DNA of 20,126 nucleotides, taken from positions 1 to 20,126 of the IMG/VR virus record IMGVR_UViG_3300031227_004569, one strand, 5' to 3'. The DNA is from a virus. The position numbers and the translations under genes were made by a program. How positions within the stretch are numbered: the first letter of the stretch is position 1; every line of letters begins with the position of its first letter. The notes beneath the pieces were generated by a model. The model saw only the letters and a list, made by a program, of their open reading frames with translations, had not been told where the DNA came from and ran no database searches. Of the stretch, positions 1,581 to 14,939 are shown piece after piece.

Positions 1581-1590
1581 ATATCTGATA

Positions 1591-1620
1591 AAATTTTTTG
1601 TGGTATTTACTGTATAATAA
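1591..1620 (+). promoter_or_regulatory. Putative promoter upstream of queC (TGTATAAT box)
   Basis: TGTATAAT at 1612-1619 lies in the 72-base gap before queC, 34 bases before its start codon. A consensus -10 TATAAT is present but no good TTGACA -35 is seen; the upstream DNA is an A/T tract. The same eight bases occur at matching distances before the genes at 3503 and 9111, which strengthens the call. Confidence 0.55.
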
Positions 1621-1652: not shown

Positions 1653-2381
1653 ATGTCGAAAAAAGCCGTTATATGTGTAAGTGGTGGTATGGATAGTATG
1701 GTTGCTTTAGCTTACGCAGCTTTAAAATACGAACCCGTTATGATGCATATTGACTACGGGCAGTTAACTGAAGCCCGAGAGCGTGAAAGTTTCACCCAAC
1801 TCGCATCTTGGTATAACGTTCCTGTAAGTAACACACATTTTTTTAAGACGGACGTCCTGCAAAAGATAGGTACATCCTGTCTAACGGATGCGAGTATTGA
1901 AGTTCCTAAGGGTGGTATACGGCCTGATACCATTCCAGAATCCTACGTACCCTTTCGTAATGGTATTATTCTATCGATGGCTGCAGCGCTCGCACAGGCA
2001 ATCGACGCAAATTATATTTACACAGGCTTCGTAGAAGAGGACAGTTCGGGTTATCCAGATTGCCGCGAAGTATTCGTTGAAGCTTTCCAATATGCTATTA
2101 AAGAAGGTCTTCGCCCTACTGCCGATGTCAGGATTATGACTCCTGTATTACGTATGACGAAAATGGAAGTCGTTAAAGTTGCGATTACATTGAAAACGCC
2201 TCTGCATTTAACCTGGTCATGTTATGAAAAAGAAGATCTTGCATGTGGCGTTTGTGATAGTTGCAGACTTCGTATCAAAGGATTCTCTGAAATGGGTGTT
2301 ATTGATCCTATCCCTTATGCGCTCAATATAGTCTGGCCGAAAGATTGCAAACCCTATACCAGTGTAGCTCCTAATGCCTAA
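1653..2381 (+). CDS. queC: 7-cyano-7-deazaguanine (preQ0) synthase QueC
   Basis: QueC converts 7-carboxy-7-deazaguanine plus ammonia and ATP to preQ0, the last step of preQ0 synthesis from GTP. The 242-residue protein has the PP-loop ATP-binding motif SGGMDS at 10-15, YVPFRN at 98-103 (QueC-typical VPxRN), DSSGYPDCR at 130-138, and the C-terminal zinc site with Cys190, Cys198, Cys201 and Cys204 (CGVCDSC). Length is normal for QueC. Start ATG 1653 has a GGAGG site just upstream (TCGGAGGATACG). It opens the modification block and overlaps the next gene by 8 bases. In a phage, preQ0 is most often used for DNA modification, and a DpdA-like gene lies downstream at 7186. Confidence 0.95.
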   Translation: MSKKAVICVSGGMDSMVALAYAALKYEPVMMHIDYGQLTEARERESFTQLASWYNVPVSNTHFFKTDVLQKIGTSCLTDASIEVPKGGIRPDTIPESYVPFRNGIILSMAAALAQAIDANYIYTGFVEEDSSGYPDCREVFVEAFQYAIKEGLRPTADVRIMTPVLRMTKMEVVKVAITLKTPLHLTWSCYEKEDLACGVCDSCRLRIKGFSEMGVIDPIPYALNIVWPKDCKPYTSVAPNA

Positions 2382-2658
2382 GTGGCGTCCCAACCAATTC
2401 CGGATGGTAATCAAAGGTGATTTTAAAGTATTACTTCCAGAATTTGAAATTCTAGATCCGCACGATCAGTCTATACCCGCGGATTATACAGGTAAGATAA
2501 TCTTTCTTGCGCTGCTATTAAATGATTGCGTCCCTGATGTATACCTCGAAACTATATCGAAATCATACGCATCTGCAATTAGCCAGTTACGAAAACTTAT
2601 TCAACCTTATAATATTAAGATTGCACGCGTACGAGGTACTGGTTACAAACTACTTTAA
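2374..2658 (+). CDS. Small OmpR/PhoB-type winged-helix DNA-binding protein
   Basis: This 94-residue protein resembles the isolated C-terminal DNA-binding domain of OmpR/PhoB response regulators. The last 30 residues carry the recognition-helix and wing signature: YASAISQLRKLI, then ARVRGTGYKLL, which fits the family pattern VxxxIxxLRxKL with TVRGxGYxL. No receiver domain is present. ATG 2374 overlaps the end of queC by 8 bases, suggesting translational coupling; no clear ribosome binding site is seen. ATG 2404 is an alternative start. Its place between queC and folE2 makes it a candidate regulator of the deazaguanine genes or of phage gene timing, but that is inference. Confidence 0.7.
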   Translation: MPKWRPNQFRMVIKGDFKVLLPEFEILDPHDQSIPADYTGKIIFLALLLNDCVPDVYLETISKSYASAISQLRKLIQPYNIKIARVRGTGYKLL

Positions 2659-2674
2659 AATGGAGACTTTTCTA

Positions 2675-3442
2675 ATGAAAGACGTACAGGCCGAAATCGA
2701 TCGTCGAGGTAAACTTATACATAAAGTCGGTGTACGAAATGTTCGTACGTTGGTACGCTTCGACGAATGCCAATTTTGGGCTAATATAAGTTCTTACATA
2801 ACACTTGAGGATTTTCAACGCGGCGCACATATGTCGAGATTTATAGAAGTCCTGGATAAAGTACCGCAGACTATCGATAAACCCGCGCAGTACCTGCGTG
2901 ACTATTTGTACGCGTTATGTACTGTACATAATGCAAAAGAAGCCTTTCTTAAAGTACGCACTTCATTACCCCTTTGTACAATCTCACCTGTGTCGAATAA
3001 GACCTCTCTTAGACATATTCCTTGTGAGTTAGAAGGGGAAAAGCATTTAGCTGGCTACAAATGTTTCGTACGTATTAAGATGTTCGTAACTTCCCTTTGC
3101 CCATGTAGCAAAGATATTTCTGAGTACGGAGCACATAACCAACGTGCAATGATTGATGTACGCGTGCAAATTAAAAATGATATAGATCTAAGCGACTTCA
3201 TGTATCGTTTAAGTATGTTAGGAAGCTCTCCTATTCATGAGCTGCTTAAACGCCCTGATGAGAAGTTTGTAACGGAAGCCGCTTTTGAAAATCCTAAATT
3301 CTGTGAAGATATCGCACGCGATGTATCCCTCGAAGTAGACAAGATGAGAAATATCACCGACTACAGTGTCGTTGTAGAAAGTGAGGAAAGTATTCACGAT
3401 CATAATGCTCTCGCGATTATCGACCATTTTAAATTCGCTTAA
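2675..3442 (+). CDS. folE2: GTP cyclohydrolase I type 2 (FolE2 / GCYH-IB)
   Basis: FolE2 converts GTP to dihydroneopterin triphosphate, the shared first step of folate and preQ0 synthesis. The T-fold protein shows DVQ at 3-5, VGVRNVR at 18-24, GAHMSRF at 50-56, the signature LCPCSK at 141-146 with the active-site Cys, YGAHNQR at 151-157 and EAAFENPKF at 201-209. I chose ATG 2675 (255 residues) because TGGAGA eight bases upstream is a good ribosome binding site; ATG 2660 is in frame but overlaps that site. The related T-fold enzyme QueF is excluded by the FolE2-specific CPCSK and YGAHNQR motifs. With queC it supplies two of the four preQ0 steps; QueD and QueE are not in the window. Confidence 0.93.
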   Translation: MKDVQAEIDRRGKLIHKVGVRNVRTLVRFDECQFWANISSYITLEDFQRGAHMSRFIEVLDKVPQTIDKPAQYLRDYLYALCTVHNAKEAFLKVRTSLPLCTISPVSNKTSLRHIPCELEGEKHLAGYKCFVRIKMFVTSLCPCSKDISEYGAHNQRAMIDVRVQIKNDIDLSDFMYRLSMLGSSPIHELLKRPDEKFVTEAAFENPKFCEDIARDVSLEVDKMRNITDYSVVVESEESIHDHNALAIIDHFKFA

Positions 3443-3467
3443 CTTTTATATTAAATTTGTGTATAAT
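3439..3467 (+). promoter_or_regulatory. Putative promoter upstream of dut (TGTATAAT box)
   Basis: TGTATAAT at 3460-3467 lies 36 bases before the dut start codon in a 60-base gap. A weak -35 candidate, TTAACT at 3439-3444, is 17 bases upstream of TATAAT and overlaps the folE2 stop. The box matches those before queC and the ssDNA-binding gene. Confidence 0.55.
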
Positions 3468-3979: not shown

Positions 3980-6356
3980 ACCCTTTGATATACGAAAATT
4001 CTGTGTAGCATGCCCCTATAAAGGTAATAAAGCTCTCCCTATGGAGGTAAGTCCTTCTGCAAAGGTGTTGCTTATAGGTGAAGCTCCCGCGCGTGAGGAA
4101 ATGGAAGGCGACCGTAATTTCATAGGTGCTTCAGGACGCTTACTTACGCGATATCTACGTGCGGTAAGACATCATCGAAGAGATGTACATATAGGTAATA
4201 TTATAAGATGTAAACTCCCAGATAATTTATCCCGAACACAAAAAGATTCTTTAATAGTAAAACTATCACGACCTTGTGGACGTTACGTATTATGGGACGC
4301 TTTAAAATTAAAACCTAAAATTATCGTTTTACTAGGTAAACCCGCCACACATTATTTTGTTAAAGGAAAGCCTTCCATAGTATCAGTACGTGGAAGGATC
4401 TTTTATTCGGAACTAGCTAAAACGCATATTATATGTACATACCATCCTGCAGCGGTTATGCGTGATTGGTCTTATGAAAAGTTAATCATCCGCGACTTAG
4501 AAAAAGCTTTTGCGTTTATTGATAACCCCGATGTATCTATAAAACCTACGCAATATAAAATAGCCAGAGATTTAGAAGAGTCTTTAAGCATATGTGAGTA
4601 TTTACGTAACCAGGATGAAATTGTCTTCGATGTTGAAACAAATGCTTTAGACTGGAATACTCCAGAGGGAGAAGTTCTTAGCTGGGGTTTTTCATCTAAA
4701 CCTTTTACGGGTATAACCATACCATTTACATCTATTCATAGTACACCCCTTACAAAAAAAGGGCAGATAAAACTAATCGCTGAAGGTATTAAACCTTTGC
4801 TAGAAAGCTCGAATAAAAAGATAGGTCAGAATATAGGATTTGATTGTCATTGGGCTCTCAACTACGGTATAAATGTAGATAATATTTCTTTTGATACAAT
4901 GCTAGCGCATCATTTGATCGATGAAAATATGCCTCTTAATCTCGACACCCTAGCAGATTTTTATACTGATATGGGTACATACGCTGATGAATTATACGCG
5001 CATTTGCCTAATAAAAAAACTAGCTATAATGTAGTTCCAGATGAGGTACTTTGGAATTACGGTGCCAAAGATTGCGATGCGGAGTTTCGTATAAAAGAAA
5101 TCTTCGAAGAAAAACTTGATCAGGAAGGTGTACGTTGGGTATTTAAAAATATTAGCGTACCTATGATATCCGTAATAAATCGTATAGAGCGCCGCGGTGT
5201 ATACGTTGATCGCAACGGCTTTGAAAAAGCCGATGCGGAGGCTGGCAAAGAACTAAATCGCCTACGTAACGAAATGCTAGTATACTCAGGTATGGGAGAA
5301 GATTTTAATCCCAATTCCACGCAGCAGATACAAAAGATATTATTCGAGGCACTCAAGTTAGCTCCCGGGCGTAAAATTAAAACTGGTTATTCTACAGACG
5401 ATAAAGTTTTGGAACAACTCGAGGGGCAACATAAATTTGTTGATCTATTACGCCTCTATCGAAAGGTAGCCAAATTTAAAGGTACTTATTTAGATGGTAC
5501 CAAAGAAGGTAAAGAAGCAGGCCTAATGCGTCGAATAGGCCCGGATGGTCGTATTCATACTTCATATAAAATACCTGGTACAGGTACTGGACGTTTATCC
5601 TCGAGTGACCCCAATCTTCAAAACGTTCCTCGAGGAGACACTTTCAGACCTTTATTTAAAGCAGCTCCAGGTTATAAATTCGTCATAGCGGATTTTGAAA
5701 GGGGTGAGTTATATGCTGCAGCGCATTTGAGCCGTGACTCGCAATTAAAAAAGGCGTTACAGCAAGATGTGCATAGACTTTTAGCAGCTAAGATGTTTAA
5801 TAAACGTCCTGAAGATGTTACGAAAGAGGAACGTATCGATGCGAAGACAGTTATATTTGGTATTCAATATGGTCGTGGACCCGATTCAATCGCGAAACAA
5901 TTGAAAATAAGTAGACATGAAGCTGTAAAGTATATCGTACAATTTTTTGATAGTTACCCGCAATTAGAAGCCTGGATAAAACGTCAGCATGAACAAACAA
6001 AACGCTATGGATTCGTGCGCGATCTTTTTGGACGCAAACGTCATCTATACGGAATATTTTCAGTACAGAATACTTATGTGTTTGGAGAGATGCTTCGACA
6101 AGCACAGAACATGCCTGTTCAAGGTTCGTTAGCTGACGCGGGACATTTAGCAACTATCGAATTTGATAATCGCCTACAAGAGGAAAATCTAGATGCGGGA
6201 CTTGTACTTTTAATTCATGATGAAATTGTTGTTGAGTCCCGAGAAGATCTAGTCCCGCAAGTATCTACCTTGATAAAAGACTGTTTTGAAAAACCTCGTA
6301 AAGGTTTACAGATACCAGTAGAAATTCTCGTAGGTGACAATTGGGGTGCGAAATGA
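3930..6356 (+). CDS. Uracil-DNA glycosylase (family 4-like) / DNA polymerase I fusion
   Basis: An 808-residue three-part replication enzyme. Residues 20-200 match family 4 uracil-DNA glycosylase: Cys25, Cys28, Cys94 and Cys116 as probable 4Fe-4S ligands, GEAPA at 50-54, DRNFIGASGRLL at 61-72 and HPAA at 172-175. Residues 225-395 are a DnaQ-like 3'-5' exonuclease with Asp234, Glu236, Asp305 and Tyr377/Asp381. Residues 400-808 are a family A polymerase: TGRLSSSDPNLQNVP at 553-567, motif A Asp588 and Glu593, motif B Lys639, Phe643 and Tyr647, motif C HDE at 763-765. Motif A reads DFERGEL instead of the usual DYSQIEL. SPO1-type phage polymerases have a comparable N-terminal glycosylase-like domain. 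The start is uncertain: TTG 3930 has AGAGG nine bases upstream and would overlap dut by 50 bases; GTG 3948 is an alternative. Confidence 0.93.
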   Translation: MKTARGVPKDSEVLDVEPFDIRKFCVACPYKGNKALPMEVSPSAKVLLIGEAPAREEMEGDRNFIGASGRLLTRYLRAVRHHRRDVHIGNIIRCKLPDNLSRTQKDSLIVKLSRPCGRYVLWDALKLKPKIIVLLGKPATHYFVKGKPSIVSVRGRIFYSELAKTHIICTYHPAAVMRDWSYEKLIIRDLEKAFAFIDNPDVSIKPTQYKIARDLEESLSICEYLRNQDEIVFDVETNALDWNTPEGEVLSWGFSSKPFTGITIPFTSIHSTPLTKKGQIKLIAEGIKPLLESSNKKIGQNIGFDCHWALNYGINVDNISFDTMLAHHLIDENMPLNLDTLADFYTDMGTYADELYAHLPNKKTSYNVVPDEVLWNYGAKDCDAEFRIKEIFEEKLDQEGVRWVFKNISVPMISVINRIERRGVYVDRNGFEKADAEAGKELNRLRNEMLVYSGMGEDFNPNSTQQIQKILFEALKLAPGRKIKTGYSTDDKVLEQLEGQHKFVDLLRLYRKVAKFKGTYLDGTKEGKEAGLMRRIGPDGRIHTSYKIPGTGTGRLSSSDPNLQNVPRGDTFRPLFKAAPGYKFVIADFERGELYAAAHLSRDSQLKKALQQDVHRLLAAKMFNKRPEDVTKEERIDAKTVIFGIQYGRGPDSIAKQLKISRHEAVKYIVQFFDSYPQLEAWIKRQHEQTKRYGFVRDLFGRKRHLYGIFSVQNTYVFGEMLRQAQNMPVQGSLADAGHLATIEFDNRLQEENLDAGLVLLIHDEIVVESREDLVPQVSTLIKDCFEKPRKGLQIPVEILVGDNWGAK

Positions 6357-6637
6357 AAAAGCTTGATGATGTCGATTTTGAAGACCAGCCGGATATAGAA
6401 AACTTTCTAAGTCAATACATCTGTCCTTATAAACACGTAGGAGATGTACGCCATGTTTTAAATATTGCAGCATGGCAAGTTCGTGGAGAAGACGGATCTA
6501 ATGCGTTAAAAGGACACGCTCTACACGTATTTTGTAATTGCGGTTTCGCGAGCGCGAAAGTATTCGAGCCTATCGGTGAAAATCGTACGCGGGAAGCAAT
6601 CGACGTTTTTTTAAACGGAGCACTTTTTTTAGGATAA
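6353..6637 (+). CDS. Hypothetical protein, 94 aa, with a CxC motif
   Basis: ATG 6353 overlaps the polymerase stop as ATGA, with GGGGTG just upstream, so translation is probably coupled. The protein is acidic at its N-terminus (KKLDDVDFEDQ) and contains Cys-Pro near residue 24 and FCNCGF near residue 65, which could bind a metal. No family was recognised. The spacing to the next start codon is only a few bases, placing it firmly in the polymerase to dpdA operon. Confidence 0.7.
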   Translation: MKKLDDVDFEDQPDIENFLSQYICPYKHVGDVRHVLNIAAWQVRGEDGSNALKGHALHVFCNCGFASAKVFEPIGENRTREAIDVFLNGALFLG

Positions 6638-6641
6638 CAAA

Positions 6642-7196
6642 ATGTCTATAAAAATCTGTTTTGTGGGTGCACATGGAACTGGTAAAACTACTCTAGCCTT
6701 TGAAGTACATAAATGGCTCGAGCGTGAAAAGCGTATACCTTGTAAATTGTTTTGTGAGAGTACCGATAAAGCGGTTAAGGATATCCCCAAGTACGACCCA
6801 TTTTATGAAAGTATACTTATTCAACGGCGCAAAGAACTTTTTATGCAGCATGAAAATTTTATTTCGGATAGATCCCTTATAGATCCATTAGGTTATCAAT
6901 TTGTTAAAAAAGAATGCTTTCATCCTGGTACGTATAAAATAGCTTTAGAAGCAACACGTAAAGACGCACATATACTATTCTATATTCCTATTGCAATACC
7001 TTTAAAAGGCGAAGGCCACCGTCCGAAGGATGTTAAATATCAGCTAAGCGTAGCCAAGGCTATCAAACATGTTTTACATCAAGAACAATTAGTAATATAT
7101 GAAATAACCCGCGTCGATTTAGTAGAACGCTTAGAATTTGTAAAGCATATATTAGCCAAACGCATCCAAATCTTTGGAGGATCTAATGATAAGTAG
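6642..7196 (+). CDS. P-loop NTPase, AAA_28 / nucleoside-kinase-like
   Basis: The 184-residue protein has a Walker A motif, GAHGTGKTT at 9-17, and a DRS motif at 76-78 (ISDRSLIDPLGY) like the substrate-binding DR(S/Y) of deoxynucleoside and thymidylate kinases. HRP at 126-128 could be a lid arginine region. The layout resembles NadR/AAA_28-type kinases found in many phages. The substrate cannot be read from the sequence; the position directly before the DpdA-like gene makes a nucleotide or modified-base role attractive but unproven. ATG 6642 has AGGA six bases upstream, and the gene overlaps the next by 11 bases. Confidence 0.75.
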   Translation: MSIKICFVGAHGTGKTTLAFEVHKWLEREKRIPCKLFCESTDKAVKDIPKYDPFYESILIQRRKELFMQHENFISDRSLIDPLGYQFVKKECFHPGTYKIALEATRKDAHILFYIPIAIPLKGEGHRPKDVKYQLSVAKAIKHVLHQEQLVIYEITRVDLVERLEFVKHILAKRIQIFGGSNDK

Positions 7197-8019
7197 TGTT
7201 AAAATGTTTCATACAGCACCCGTTGCCCTCATGCCGCAGTTAGAAGACCATCAAGACTTTTTATTCATCGAAGCGGCTATGGCTTTGGAGAATAAAAAAT
7301 ATTTTGATTATATACTGCGGCTACGTACGTTGCATCCCAATATGTATATCATTATGGATAACTCTGCGTACTTACTGGGTAAGCCCATGCCCGAAAAAGA
7401 TTTTATGCGTGCCTATGAATTTTTCTCGCCTGACTGCATCGTAGTGTTAGACCATCCCTATCAACGCGAGAAAACCCTTGATCTCACAGAAGCTTTTATT
7501 AAAAAGTATCATGGACGTATCAAAGCTAAATTTATGGGTGTACCTCAAGGAAGTACCTTTGCGGAGTATATGCTGTGTTTTCAACTTATGAAACGCTACA
7601 ACGAACTTAGCGTAATCGGCATCAATATGTTTATGGATTGGGAACATCCAGATTTAAGTAAGCTGGAAAAAACCGATCGTGTATGCCGCTTTCGTTCTAC
7701 AGTTATGTTAAATATAAACGCCTCACTCACAGAACATAATAAACTTAAAGAGGGTAGCTTTAAAGCTATACATCTCCTAGGACTTACATTAGGACGAGAA
7801 CTTGCTTTTGCTACGAATCAACATATGACTTTAATAAGGTCATGCGATAGTTCTTCAGCGTTCATACACGGTTATCAAGGTATACGTTACGGTAAGGAAG
7901 GTCTCGTCAAGAAAGACTGGGAGCACAAAATGGATTTCGCCATTCAAAAAATTAGCGGTAAACAACTGACTAATATATTACATAATGTAGCAGTCATTAA
8001 TACAATGAAGGATTTCTAA
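7186..8019 (+). CDS. dpdA: DpdA-like 7-deazaguanine DNA transglycosylase (TGT-like TIM barrel)
   Basis: DpdA enzymes are relatives of tRNA-guanine transglycosylase that replace guanine in DNA with preQ0. The 277-residue protein shows the TGT-like pattern: MDNSAY at 57-62 with Asp58 (as in the TGT DSGG motif), VVLDHP at 86-91, GVPQGS at 118-123 (TGT VQGG region), HLLGL at 196-200 and RSCDSSS at 218-224 with Asp221 as the probable nucleophile. It lacks the TGT zinc-binding tail, as expected for an enzyme not acting on tRNA. ATG 7186 is preferred because GGAGG at 7176-7180 precedes it by five bases; an in-frame TTG at 7174 lies on that site. queC and folE2 in the same window support the DNA-modification role. 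The exact final base is not readable from sequence. Confidence 0.82.
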   Translation: MISSVKMFHTAPVALMPQLEDHQDFLFIEAAMALENKKYFDYILRLRTLHPNMYIIMDNSAYLLGKPMPEKDFMRAYEFFSPDCIVVLDHPYQREKTLDLTEAFIKKYHGRIKAKFMGVPQGSTFAEYMLCFQLMKRYNELSVIGINMFMDWEHPDLSKLEKTDRVCRFRSTVMLNINASLTEHNKLKEGSFKAIHLLGLTLGRELAFATNQHMTLIRSCDSSSAFIHGYQGIRYGKEGLVKKDWEHKMDFAIQKISGKQLTNILHNVAVINTMKDF

Positions 8020-8609
8020 TGTCATACTATAAAGATCAAATTCTTGAAGAACTGGTGCAGGTAAAGCGTCCAGATATACCTGAATTAATTAAGTACCTTG
8101 AAGAAAGTGACTTCTTCACCGCACCAGCCTCAACACGATATCACGATTCGGAACCTGGAGGTTTGGCATACCATAGCTGGACTGTTTTCAGATTGTTCAA
8201 GCATAAAAATGGTATTTATAAACTCGACCTACCTGGGGATACTATCCGTATAGCAGGATTATTACACGACGCATGTAAAATAAATTATTACAAAATGGGT
8301 AAAAAGTGGTACAAGGACGAATCCACGAATTGGAAGTGGGCTCAACAAGACGTATGGCAAGTAGAAGATCAATTCCCAGTAGGCCACGGAGAAAAATCCG
8401 TTATTGTACTACAGAAATATATTGCGCTTACTGAGGTAGAAATTTTATTGATCCGTTGGCATATGTCTTCGTTTGATGCTGCTACACATTTCTACCCACA
8501 TAAATTTGCTTTTAATGATGCCTTAGAAAAATGTCCCGGTATAGTAGCTTTAGCTTCGGCTGATTGGGAATCGAGAATAGTACCTGAGGAAGGGGCTTCG
8601 AATGGATGA
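8019..8609 (+). CDS. HD-domain phosphohydrolase
   Basis: The 196-residue protein carries the HD metal-binding pattern: His52 (AYHSW), His83-Asp84 (LLHDACK), His123 (GHGEKS), His148 (RWHM) and Asp182 (ASADW). HD enzymes of this size hydrolyse phosphoester bonds in nucleotides or RNA; the substrate is not evident. The start codon shares one base with the dpdA stop (TAATG), and the end overlaps the next gene as ATGA, so it belongs to the dpdA operon. A role in trimming dNTP pools or salvaging the displaced base is conceivable only by context. Confidence 0.82.
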   Translation: MSYYKDQILEELVQVKRPDIPELIKYLEESDFFTAPASTRYHDSEPGGLAYHSWTVFRLFKHKNGIYKLDLPGDTIRIAGLLHDACKINYYKMGKKWYKDESTNWKWAQQDVWQVEDQFPVGHGEKSVIVLQKYIALTEVEILLIRWHMSSFDAATHFYPHKFAFNDALEKCPGIVALASADWESRIVPEEGASNG

Positions 8610-9004
8610 GTTTCAAGGCTTACACAGCGGGCTATTTCGATGGCGAGGGCTCCATTCAGATTACAGTAGATTATACATTACGTATTTCGATAGGGAATAC
8701 GTGCCTATCTACAATAAAGTGGCTACATTCAATCTGGGGCGGGAATCTTTATGAATTTCGAGCTCCCACTTCAAAAAGAAGGGTTTTACGTTTGAATTTA
8801 AGCGGTAGCGCAGCTGCAAACTTTTTATATGAGATATTACCCTATTTACACGATAAAAAGCGCCGAGCATTATTAGTATTGAGTTTTTACAGGTATAAAA
8901 GGTTGTATAAACTTGGTAGAGGAAGCAGAAGTCCTAGAGACAAAAAAATACTTAAACGTCGTGAAGCTTATAAAAAGTCTTTAAGCGTTTTAAATCATAG
9001 GTAA
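8606..9004 (+). CDS. LAGLIDADG-type homing endonuclease (free-standing, single motif)
   Basis: The N-terminus has TAGYFDGEGS at residues 7-16, a clear single LAGLIDADG motif with the catalytic acidic residue at its end (Asp12/Glu14 region). At 132 residues it would act as a homodimer. The C-terminal third is very basic (YRYKRLYKLGRGSRS onward), as expected for DNA binding. It is not inside a recognisable intron or intein: it is joined by a 4-base ATGA overlap to the HD gene, with GAGGAAGGGG about ten bases upstream of ATG 8606. Such free-standing phage endonucleases usually cut relatives lacking them, near their own insertion site, and spread by repair. Confidence 0.82.
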   Translation: MSFKAYTAGYFDGEGSIQITVDYTLRISIGNTCLSTIKWLHSIWGGNLYEFRAPTSKRRVLRLNLSGSAAANFLYEILPYLHDKKRRALLVLSFYRYKRLYKLGRGSRSPRDKKILKRREAYKKSLSVLNHR

Positions 9005-9039: not shown

Positions 9040-9068
9040 TTAAATTTTAATTTTAAATTTTGTATAAT
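9040..9068 (+). promoter_or_regulatory. Putative strong promoter upstream of the ssDNA-binding gene (TGTATAAT box)
   Basis: TGTATAAT at 9061-9068 follows an uninterrupted A/T tract from 9040 that resembles an UP element; TTAAAT at 9040-9045 sits at -35 spacing. It is 43 bases before the start codon at 9111. The gap of about 105 bases between the endonuclease gene and 9111 holds nothing else recognisable. Confidence 0.6.
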
Positions 9069-10137: not shown

Positions 10138-10518
10138 ATGATCGGCAGGAAGAGAGAGGAAGAGGTAGCAAAGGTAGCAGAGGACGCACGTGATACGGAT
10201 GTGGTGGAAACAGAAACGCAGCCCGAGCCTCCCGCACGCACTGCCTCTGAAGATGTGCGTATCATTCAAGAAATGCTTAAACAACTTTTGCCCACAGCGC
10301 AGGAAGATCCTGTATCTATCAGCCGTATTCCTGAGCACTGCGCGGCAATTATGTCAGCAGCTTTGAACCTTGAATGGTTCGGACATACTGGAGGTAAGCA
10401 ACCTCCGGGCAAGGAGCACGCTACGAATGTTATCGCTGTACGCATTTTCAATCTGGATATGACGCTCGCGGAATTTTTCGAGAAGGTACGGGGAATCTTA
10501 CAGCGCGTCGAAAAATAA
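10138..10518 (+). CDS. Hypothetical protein, 126 aa
   Basis: ATG 10138 follows a perfect AAGGAGGT by seven bases, one of the best ribosome binding sites in the window. Residues 1-40 are charged and probably disordered (RKREEEVAKVAED, then a Pro-rich stretch). Residues 40-126 look folded and mostly helical (IIQEMLKQLL, IPEHCAAIMSAALNLEWFG, then AEFFEKVRGILQRV). No family was recognised. It is the last gene before a strong terminator, in the same GC-richer, probably highly expressed group as the ssDNA-binding gene. Confidence 0.75.
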   Translation: MIGRKREEEVAKVAEDARDTDVVETETQPEPPARTASEDVRIIQEMLKQLLPTAQEDPVSISRIPEHCAAIMSAALNLEWFGHTGGKQPPGKEHATNVIAVRIFNLDMTLAEFFEKVRGILQRVEK

Positions 10519-10537: not shown

Positions 10538-10587
10538 AGTACGCCGCTTATATGTATTTATACGCTCTCATAGGCGGCGTACTTTTT
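10538..10587 (+). terminator. Rho-independent terminator
   Basis: AGTACGCCGC at 10538-10547 pairs perfectly with GCGGCGTACT at 10574-10583; TTAT and ATAG extend the stem to 14 pairs with one G-U wobble. The 18-base loop is followed by a T-run (10583-10587). It lies 20 bases after the stop of the gene ending at 10518 and closes the ssDNA-binding operon. Confidence 0.88.
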
Positions 10588-10793
10588 AACTCTAAAAGTT
10601 TCATCTACTCCTGAAGTTCTTAGCCTAAAAGACTTTAAAAGATGGTTTACAAAGTTAAATCTCGATATTTAAAGTTTAATGGGTATATTTTAGAATCTTA
10701 CGTAATAACATTAATAGTAATAGGGACAAAGTAAATTACTTTGTATGTACTTGGTAAAATAATACAATTTTTAAGTAGATTTGAAAAAAGGTT
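10588..10793 (+). other. AT-rich regulatory gap before the replication operon
   Basis: After the terminator there is no credible gene until the resolvase start at 10800. The stretch is AT-rich with a 19-bp palindrome at 10726-10744. TTACTT at 10736-10741 and TAATAC at 10760-10765 could be a weak promoter overlapping the palindrome. The TGTATAAT box found before three other transcription units is absent here. Confidence 0.5.
10726..10744. repeat. 19-bp perfect palindrome, putative operator
   Basis: ACAAAGTAA, a central A, and TTACTTTGT form a perfect 9+1+9 inverted repeat, typical in size for a dimeric repressor site. It lies about 55 bases upstream of the resolvase start codon and overlaps a weak promoter candidate. 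A role as a replication-origin element is the alternative. Confidence 0.55.
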
Positions 10794-10799
10794 GTGCTT

Positions 10800-11393
10800 G
10801 TGAAAATACCCAGAACAAAAATTGTGAATCCTTCCGTATTCTTTGGGTTGGACATTATGGTGCGCAATGCTGGTATCGTGGGTATTAATGCTGAAGGCGA
10901 TAAGGTCATATCCGAGATATGGGACTGTCCTCTTAAAGGTATTAAACGCGTAAATTTTTACTACGAACGCTTCTTAGAACTTATTTCGCAATATCCAAAT
11001 GCTTATTATGGCCTAGAAGATTACGCTTATGGCAAAGGGGGGAAAAATTCACGTTCAGTTTTTACCATAGGTGAAATCACTGGTGTATATAAAATGCATT
11101 TATACAGAACACGCATGCCTTTATTTATATTTGGTATAGGACAAATCAAGAAATTTTTTACTAGTAGCGGAAATGCCCCCAAAGAAGATATGATTGATAA
11201 AGCTTTAGACATGATCGATTGGATACCAACACCCAAATTAAAAAAAGATATTAATCCTATTTCTCATATAGCAGATGCTTATGCAATCTCACTTATGACA
11301 CGCTACTATGCATGTGGTAGTACCTCGACTCTAGAAGCGGCACAAATAAGTTGGTTGGAGGCGCACAATGCCGGAGAGTTTAATATTCGGTAA
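10800..11393 (+). CDS. RuvC-like Holliday junction resolvase
   Basis: A 197-residue RNase H-fold nuclease. FFGLDIMVRNAGIV at 14-27 supplies the first catalytic Asp18, GLEDYAYG at 71-78 supplies Glu73 and Asp74, and HIADAYAISL at 156-165 supplies Asp159; GQIKKFFTSSG at 114-124 matches the RuvC region before the last motifs. It would cleave four-way junctions and branched replication products before packaging. GTG 10800 is preferred because AAAAGG lies eight bases upstream; GTG 10794 is in frame but too close to that site. It overlaps the helicase gene by 26 bases and heads the replication operon. Confidence 0.85.
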   Translation: MKIPRTKIVNPSVFFGLDIMVRNAGIVGINAEGDKVISEIWDCPLKGIKRVNFYYERFLELISQYPNAYYGLEDYAYGKGGKNSRSVFTIGEITGVYKMHLYRTRMPLFIFGIGQIKKFFTSSGNAPKEDMIDKALDMIDWIPTPKLKKDINPISHIADAYAISLMTRYYACGSTSTLEAAQISWLEAHNAGEFNIR

Positions 11394-14157: not shown

Positions 14158-14175
14158 AGAGGCTACTACGCCTCT
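14158..14175 (-). terminator. Weak hairpin at the end of the sulfatase-like gene
   Basis: On the minus strand AGAGGC, a 6-base loop and GCCTCT form a perfect 6-bp stem followed by TTAAT. The hairpin includes the stop codon of the gene ending at 14166. The T-run is poor, so it may be an attenuator or RNA-stabilising hairpin rather than a full terminator. Confidence 0.35.
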
Positions 14176-14939
14176 ATAATTCTATTAAGAATAGGTACTT
14201 CTAAAAGTTTTGGATGATATATTTTGTGCCCGTACAGTCCATCTTCACCGCGACAATCTCCATGGTCGGCGAATACAAAAATATGTATAGGTTTCGGTAA
14301 CAGTGACAATAATTTTGGAAAATGGCTATCTACATAGTGTATTGCGGGCATCTGACCTCTGAATGAATAGGGCATATGTGTATCCGAAATATTTATAAAG
14401 AAGAATAATTTTTCTTTCTTAGGTAACAATAAACCTTCCATGTACGCTAATTGGTTCTCAAATGCTCCGGAAACTTTTTCGGAGAAATCCGTTTGCCAAT
14501 GAATTCCATCTTTAAAAAATTGTCGCCAAATTTCTCGCGATAAACACGCACGAGTATCAAACCAACTAACCCCGCCTATACCGACGGTTTCGTAGCCTAA
14601 GCTTTCTAAAGCTTTCACAAAATTAACATCATCATGTATACGATAATGATGTCGTATGCCCAAACCTGGATGGTGTGTACGCACGTTAAATACTTGAAAC
14701 CAACGCTCGGTTTTATAATTATAGATTCCGGGCTTCGTACTTTGCGGAAGCCATGCGTTATGAAATAATGCAAGATGTACAGGTAGCGTAAACCATCCAC
14801 AAGACCATGCTTGCGTAAATTTACCTAATTTATCTATATTAGGCGTTAACGCTTTATATGCGATATCGTAACGAAGAGAGTCCAATACAATAAAAGCGAT
14901 ATTTATAGGCTCTTTACGTAGATCTACGTTATAACGCAT
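14166..14939 (-). CDS. Sulfatase / alkaline-phosphatase-superfamily hydrolase
   Basis: A 257-residue protein with the sulfatase-superfamily order of motifs: NIAFIVLDSLRYD at 13-25 with metal ligand Asp20, TPNIDKL at 32-38, the nucleophile region FTLPVHLALF at 50-59 (Thr51 in place of the Cys/Ser of true sulfatases, as in TxPSH enzymes), SDTHMPYSF at 185-193, ADHGD at 224-228 with Asp225 and His226, and GHKIYHP at 237-243. It is shorter than most sulfatases. Thr as nucleophile points to phosphoester or phosphoglycerol chemistry as much as to sulfate. ATG 14939 lies inside the end of the preceding gene (11-base overlap). A cell-surface target is plausible, given neighbouring lysis and tail genes; no signal peptide is seen. 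Confidence 0.75.
   Translation of the reverse strand: MRYNVDLRKEPINIAFIVLDSLRYDIAYKALTPNIDKLGKFTQAWSCGWFTLPVHLALFHNAWLPQSTKPGIYNYKTERWFQVFNVRTHHPGLGIRHHYRIHDDVNFVKALESLGYETVGIGGVSWFDTRACLSREIWRQFFKDGIHWQTDFSEKVSGAFENQLAYMEGLLLPKKEKLFFFINISDTHMPYSFRGQMPAIHYVDSHFPKLLSLLPKPIHIFVFADHGDCRGEDGLYGHKIYHPKLLEVPILNRIIEA

Follow-up and report, generated by a model that had tools for sequence, protein, structure and literature searches.

Phages with 7-deazaguanine DNA have been studied for their escape from restriction, and to our knowledge the timing of gene expression in these phages has been little studied. The cassettes that encode the modification have been surveyed in phages such as 9g, CAjan and Rosebush, and in the available part of that survey's main text the words regulator and operon are absent (PMC6884629). 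A second described system is AgrR, a member of the OmpR family. According to the accessible part of its description, AgrR binds an inverted repeat plus extra in-phase direct half-sites, needs no phosphorylation for activity and mostly occupies the position of a type II activator (PMC7380067). Here we describe a phage in which a small OmpR/PhoB-type gene lies inside a preQ0 cassette, together with a recurrent composite DNA element that its product may bind.

Source records and putative modification cassette

The window, by which we mean the whole stretch of DNA analysed, is a 20,126-base IMG/VR record. A second record (G001, 61,347 bases) overlaps the window from approximately position 6338 to its end with two base differences, and extends the same phage without covering the queC region. 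A third record (G002, 49,544 bases) represents a distinct relative in which most genes are syntenic, with 24–85% identity over matching ORFs. Polymerase-based scans recovered only this same relative and one distant contig (L013).

The window encodes the 7-cyano-7-deazaguanine synthase QueC (1653–2381, plus strand; PF06508, E = 3e-63; TIGR00364 above cut-off) and the GTP cyclohydrolase IB FolE2 (2675–3442, plus strand; PF02649, E = 1e-66), the latter with an ATG at 2675 and GGAG upstream. It also encodes a DpdA-like (DNA guanine transglycosylase-like) protein (7186–8019, plus strand), linked by tblastn to an annotated Flavobacterium phage DpdA (24% identity, E = 2e-10). ATG 7186 is preferred over TTG 7174 as the start of this gene because GGAGG lies upstream. 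No Pfam or NCBIfam transglycosylase model matches the protein (7174–8019), and the only other matches are PHROGs of unknown function; it may thus represent a divergent branch. In the relative, queC, a small homologue of the winged-helix gene and folE2 follow one another in the same order as in the window, and queD and queE-like genes that score below NCBIfam cut-offs lie upstream of queC.

These gene sets partly resemble the phage 7-deazaguanine cassettes described in the available part of the survey (PMC6884629): QueC, a GTP cyclohydrolase and a DpdA-like protein are present in the window, and QueD and QueE-like proteins in the relative. Unlike those cassettes, the window phage uses FolE2 instead of FolE and carries a winged-helix gene inside the operon. 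In six other 7-deazaguanine phages that we examined, the cassettes contain no annotated regulator, and none of nine hypothetical neighbours tested there has a DNA-binding Pfam match. A literature search combining phage, queC, helix-turn-helix, folE, dpdA and regulator found nothing alike.

The two phages also differ in gene content elsewhere. Between the polymerase and kinase genes, the relative has thyX (TIGR02170; L003 8810–9454) and the window has an unrelated 98-aa ORF (6341–6637) that lacks a family match. A LAGLIDADG-like ORF (8606–9004; PF14528, E = 0.012, below cut-off) lies between an HD-domain gene and the SSB gene in the window and is missing from that place in the relative. A minus-strand ORF (14166–14939) looks sulfatase/phosphatase-superfamily-like by eye and has no match among the relative's ORFs.

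A stand-alone winged-helix gene between queC and folE2

The winged-helix gene (2374–2658, plus strand) runs for 94 codons from ATG 2374 to a stop at 2656–2658 and overlaps the end of queC (2381) by 8 nt. At the GC content of the window, the chance of 94 open codons is approximately 0.002 per start. The relative's counterpart is 53–55% identical and occupies the same position. Identity between the two phages is 53% for this protein, as compared to 67% for QueC, 63% for FolE2 and 73% for the polymerase. Synonymous sites are saturated, which makes dN/dS unusable, and we used codon-position identity in its place; the values of 62/68/38% form a coding pattern, as in the neighbouring genes. The encoded proteins are basic, with pI values of 9.3 and 9.6 in the two phages. 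The ORF is a real gene, and the sequence-only reading was right to place a 94-residue frame with an 8-base queC overlap inside the preQ0 cassette.

How the gene is started is less apparent. There is no visible Shine–Dalgarno sequence upstream, and queC, folE2, dUTPase and SSB each have one, a pattern that points to translation coupled to that of queC. Near the start of the relative's frame there is no ATG, and the candidates are TTG (at L003 4791 or 4815) or a less common start codon. This missing ATG raised the idea of a QueC–winged-helix fusion made by frameshifting, which is conceivable but not needed to account for the gene. Weak start signals in both phages would also fit a functionless passenger or decaying remnant, but the two proteins are conserved in a coding pattern (53% identity, synonymous sites saturated) and gene order is kept, which together make this extremely unlikely. 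A role in defence was rejected as well, as PADLOC returned nothing for the protein.

We identified no further homologues among viral contigs besides the one relative and none among genome contigs, and a search of a phage collection gave no meaningful match (6 records, best E = 6). This absence is weak evidence because the recall of single-protein scans is limited: QueC and FolE2 queries missed the same relative at 63–67% identity.

An AlphaFold2 model of the protein, built from a two-sequence alignment (pLDDT 87, pTM 0.76), contains an N-terminal beta-sheet, three helices and a C-terminal beta-hairpin wing. At the top of a Foldseek search against the PDB were OmpR/PhoB DNA-binding domains, including SaeR (E = 3e-4), a Thermotoga OmpR/PhoB homologue, OmpR, PhoP and PhoB. 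VIA-align superposed the model on the DNA-bound AdeR domain with a Z of 11.2 and an rmsd of 1.9 over 84 residues, and a separate alignment of the protein with AdeR shows the RG-GY wing signature and an LRK in the recognition helix. The protein is thus predicted to have the fold of OmpR/PhoB domains (PF00486; AdeR, PhoP, SaeR, PhoB) over its whole length. It differs from them in its low identity (11–26%), in its PF00486 score, which falls below the Pfam gathering cut-off (E = 0.013; 16 bits, cut-off 26.2), and in having no receiver. The relative's copy has no PF00486 match at all, a profile built from both proteins found no PDB chain and a BFVD search gave no match at E ≤ 0.001.

A receiver domain with a phospho-acceptor aspartate is absent and the ORF consists of a DNA-binding domain only, so the protein is not a response regulator. 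From the predicted structure, we assign it with good confidence to the OmpR/PhoB-type winged-helix domains. Both the domain type and the missing receiver had been proposed in the sequence-only reading; the structure prediction agrees with the former and the extent of the ORF with the latter.

A promoter class at non-structural genes

The motif TGTATAAT occurs 6 times in the window versus 1.9 expected. A GATTAAATTTT-like element (matching at 9–11 of 11 positions) accompanies the three copies that lie upstream of queC, dUTPase and SSB, and likewise five copies in the relative. In both phages, these class-1 promoter-like elements (GATTAAATTTT-N12/13-TGTATAAT) lie ahead of non-structural genes, among them queC, dUTPase and SSB; none was found before virion genes. 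The element of the operon formed by queC, the winged-helix gene and folE2 (1587–1618, plus strand) comprises GATAAAATTTT at 1587–1597, which matches 10 of 11 bases of the upstream element, and TGTATAAT at 1611–1618, and is kept in the relative. The other sites are located at 3460–3467 and 9061–9068 in the window and, in the relative, at L003 870, 4078, 5928 and 11439 and L010 569.

The half-sites of the composite operator described below are not enriched at the eight class-1 promoters: the best match is 8/9, at one of the eight, and the others are 6–7/9, within the shuffled range. The TGTATAAT promoters form a conserved class of their own, in which the composite operator is absent. This result does not support the earlier proposal that three of these promoters are targets of the winged-helix protein. 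The gene's operon position, kept in both phages, would suit a local regulator that acts on preQ0/modification genes through TGTATAAT promoters or senses a product of the pathway, as had also been suggested. We consider such a role very unlikely: half-sites beyond chance occur at 0/8 class-1 promoters, the protein has no second domain (neither ligand nor receiver) with which sensing could be supported, and the six other cassettes and their hypothetical neighbours offer no comparable regulator.

A composite element upstream of replication and virion genes

The ruvC–dnaB operon begins with a RuvC-like resolvase gene (10794–11393, plus strand; PF02075, E = 1.4e-5, above cut-off; phrog_159, E = 2e-17) and is preceded by a conserved non-coding control region (10584–10793). 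Local alignment of this region with the relative (L003 12905–13124) scored 60, a value reached in 0/500 shuffles (maximum 21), and conservation runs along the whole block. The letters GTAGATGAA within it are common to the window phage and the relative. A terminator-like hairpin with 14-nt arms followed by TTTTT (10538–10583, plus strand) forms an inverted repeat 3' of ORF 10138–10518. We further observed, inside the control region, an 18-codon minus-strand ORF (10548–10604) with CAGGAG upstream, located after the remote half-site described below, which is possibly a leftward mini-gene.

Within the control region lies a candidate operator core, ACAAAGTAA-A-TTACTTTGT (10726–10744). This palindrome by itself is only mildly unusual (13/500 shuffles are equally good), so the weight rests on its recurrence. 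With up to 3 mismatches and 20 shuffles for each genome as the null, ACAAAGTAA-N-TTACTTTGT has 3 copies in G001 versus a shuffled mean of 0, at 56941 (window 10726), 41482 and 21058, and 5 in G002 versus 0.05, at 1076, 11302, 22240, 22361 and 35325. Seven of the eight cores are free of coding bases and the eighth includes a single one; by the same ORF map, non-coding sequence makes up 7.6% and 3.1% of the two genomes. Cores precede the ruvC–dnaB operon in both phages, and two in the relative (22240 and 22361) share one gap. An orthologous virion-region gene is also preceded by a core in both (G001 41482, G002 35325), and the G001 core at 21058 precedes the head maturation protease and major capsid genes. 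The remaining cores of the relative are found at two intergenic places.

Additional half-sites accompany the cores at fixed distances. Around the eight cores, ACNNNGTAA-type half-site scores sum to 53 at an offset of −11 bp and to 30–39 at the 21 other offsets tested. The extra half-site 11 bp away is present at 5/8 cores, and in the window corresponds to ACCAAGTAC (10747–10755, minus strand), which keeps an 11-bp phase with the core. In the window phage, 3/3 cores are followed by a full 9/9 half-site at a distance of exactly 70 bp, including ACTTTGTAA (10647–10655, minus strand), and in the relative 3/5 cores are followed by one at exactly 71 bp (1076, 22361 and 35325, not 11302 or 22240), giving a remote half-site at 70 or 71 bp in 6/8 cores overall. 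Among all half-site pairs with gaps of 0–200, only 70 and 71 recur and 1/40 shuffled genomes had a gap with two pairs. These comparisons of spacing are not blind, as the half-site variants were derived from these very sites, and the sites are not independent, as two loci are orthologous between the phages. The earlier suggestion that the 10726 palindrome is a candidate target is strongly, if indirectly, supported by its recurrence in the two phages together with extra half-sites at fixed distances.

Two other readings of the region were rejected. A promoter reading, in which a −10 hexamer follows the core at a constant distance, did not reach significance (91/2000 shuffles as good), and Rfam gave 0 matches over five sources for a structural RNA.

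The composite faces the gene at G002 1076 and the virion loci, where the remote half-site lies a short way upstream of a start codon; at ruvC it faces away in both phages. The constant 70/71-bp spacing, and an orientation at ruvC that is not tied to the gene, could indicate a site of fixed geometry for a replication, packaging, partition or recombination complex with the winged-helix protein as an architectural component. Winged-helix proteins in such roles are known, RdfS being an example according to the accessible part of its description (PMC11963761). Several intergenic copies per genome, several of them shortly upstream of virion start codons, argue against this possibility, as does the fact that no partner system was recognised, and we regard it as quite unlikely.

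A strict composite pattern that matches 5/6 full phage copies had 0 matches in 84,980 species genomes, and blastn of the control block against a phage collection returned short weak pieces only. In the collections searched, the composite with its constant spacing thus appears only in these two phages. Its half-sites generally resemble what we take to be the GTAAA-type half-sites of the OmpR family. AgrR/CopR-like operators likewise combine an inverted repeat with an in-phase direct half-site (present here at 5/8 cores), a likeness of layout only: half-site sequence and spacing differ, and the remote half-site at 70/71 bp is unmatched in the part of that description available (PMC7380067). By analogy, the phage element may work like the AgrR operator, rather than being a member of the same group.

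Candidate binders of the composite element

Of the 39 proteins without assignment that we scanned in the two phages, only the winged-helix protein gave a helix-turn-helix match; a weak sigma-like protein was also found. We favour the winged-helix protein as the binder because of this single match and the precedent of the AgrR layout. From the observed gene, its conservation and predicted fold, and the composite and its positions, we infer, tentatively and somewhat short of calling it probable, that this protein binds the composite element and times the replication and virion genes.

In such a system, the winged-helix protein would be expressed, probably early, from the TGTATAAT-type promoter of its operon, with translation probably coupled to queC. 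As a receiver-less protein, it would be constitutively competent. Its candidate targets would be the ACNNNGTAA half-sites of the composite, of which two are 11 bp apart, one is inverted and one is 70/71 bp off. Binding before ruvC–dnaB and the virion genes could then act as a switch of later genes, for which we slightly favour activation; repression by looping is possible. Class-1 promoters, probably early, would drive the nucleotide, preQ0 and regulator genes, and the composite would form a second element before the replication and virion genes.

Several observations count against this reading. Two of three positions that we take to be base contacts in PhoB differ between the aligned proteins of the two phages (A/V and Q/R), though the operators are nearly the same. 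A −10 hexamer at a fixed distance from the core is not significant, and the composite is oriented away from ruvC. Finally, both genomes are incomplete, so a further regulator is possible, and a sigma-like ORF is present. This 167-aa ORF, in the longer record of the window phage (L007 1161–1664, minus strand), matches phrog_351 (E = 2e-4) and, below cut-off, Sigma70_r2 (E = 0.0085).

Alternatively, the composite could be bound by another factor, such as a regulator of the host, the sigma-like protein acting with a partner or a phage repressor encoded in unread sequence. The winged-helix protein would then act at other places, for example at promoters of the host, where, lacking a receiver, it could compete with one of the host's response regulators. 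Besides the incomplete records and the sigma-like and unassigned ORFs, the similarity of the winged-helix protein to host-type OmpR domains, detectable by sequence, speaks for this arrangement, but an OmpR-type protein would fit the GTAA-type half-sites and their 11-bp phase. The lack of composite matches in the 84,980 species genomes, in which the host may be missing, makes a widespread host regulon unlikely. For another candidate DNA-binding protein (L003:911–1303), the structural model was uninformative (pLDDT 38). Overall, we judge a different binder to be rather unlikely.

Implications

Returning to the winged-helix protein as the binder, a broader claim would be that a receiver-less OmpR-type domain serves as master switch of a tailed phage. 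It would form the same fixed-length looped complex on a tandem 11-bp plus 70/71-bp site at each replication and virion control region, and would link the genes for modification with the later programme through a single operon. We hold this claim to be doubtful.

The domain itself is of a known kind; what appears new is the phage-borne composite with its 70/71-bp spacing and the location of a putative regulator gene inside a preQ0 cassette. Because the protein is small and the candidate DNA sites are short and precisely delimited, binding can be tested directly. If the winged-helix protein does not bind, the composite remains a strongly conserved phage control sequence in need of explanation. 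If it does bind as proposed, these phages would control a regulon through a lone OmpR-type domain and an operator whose fixed spacing is unusual.
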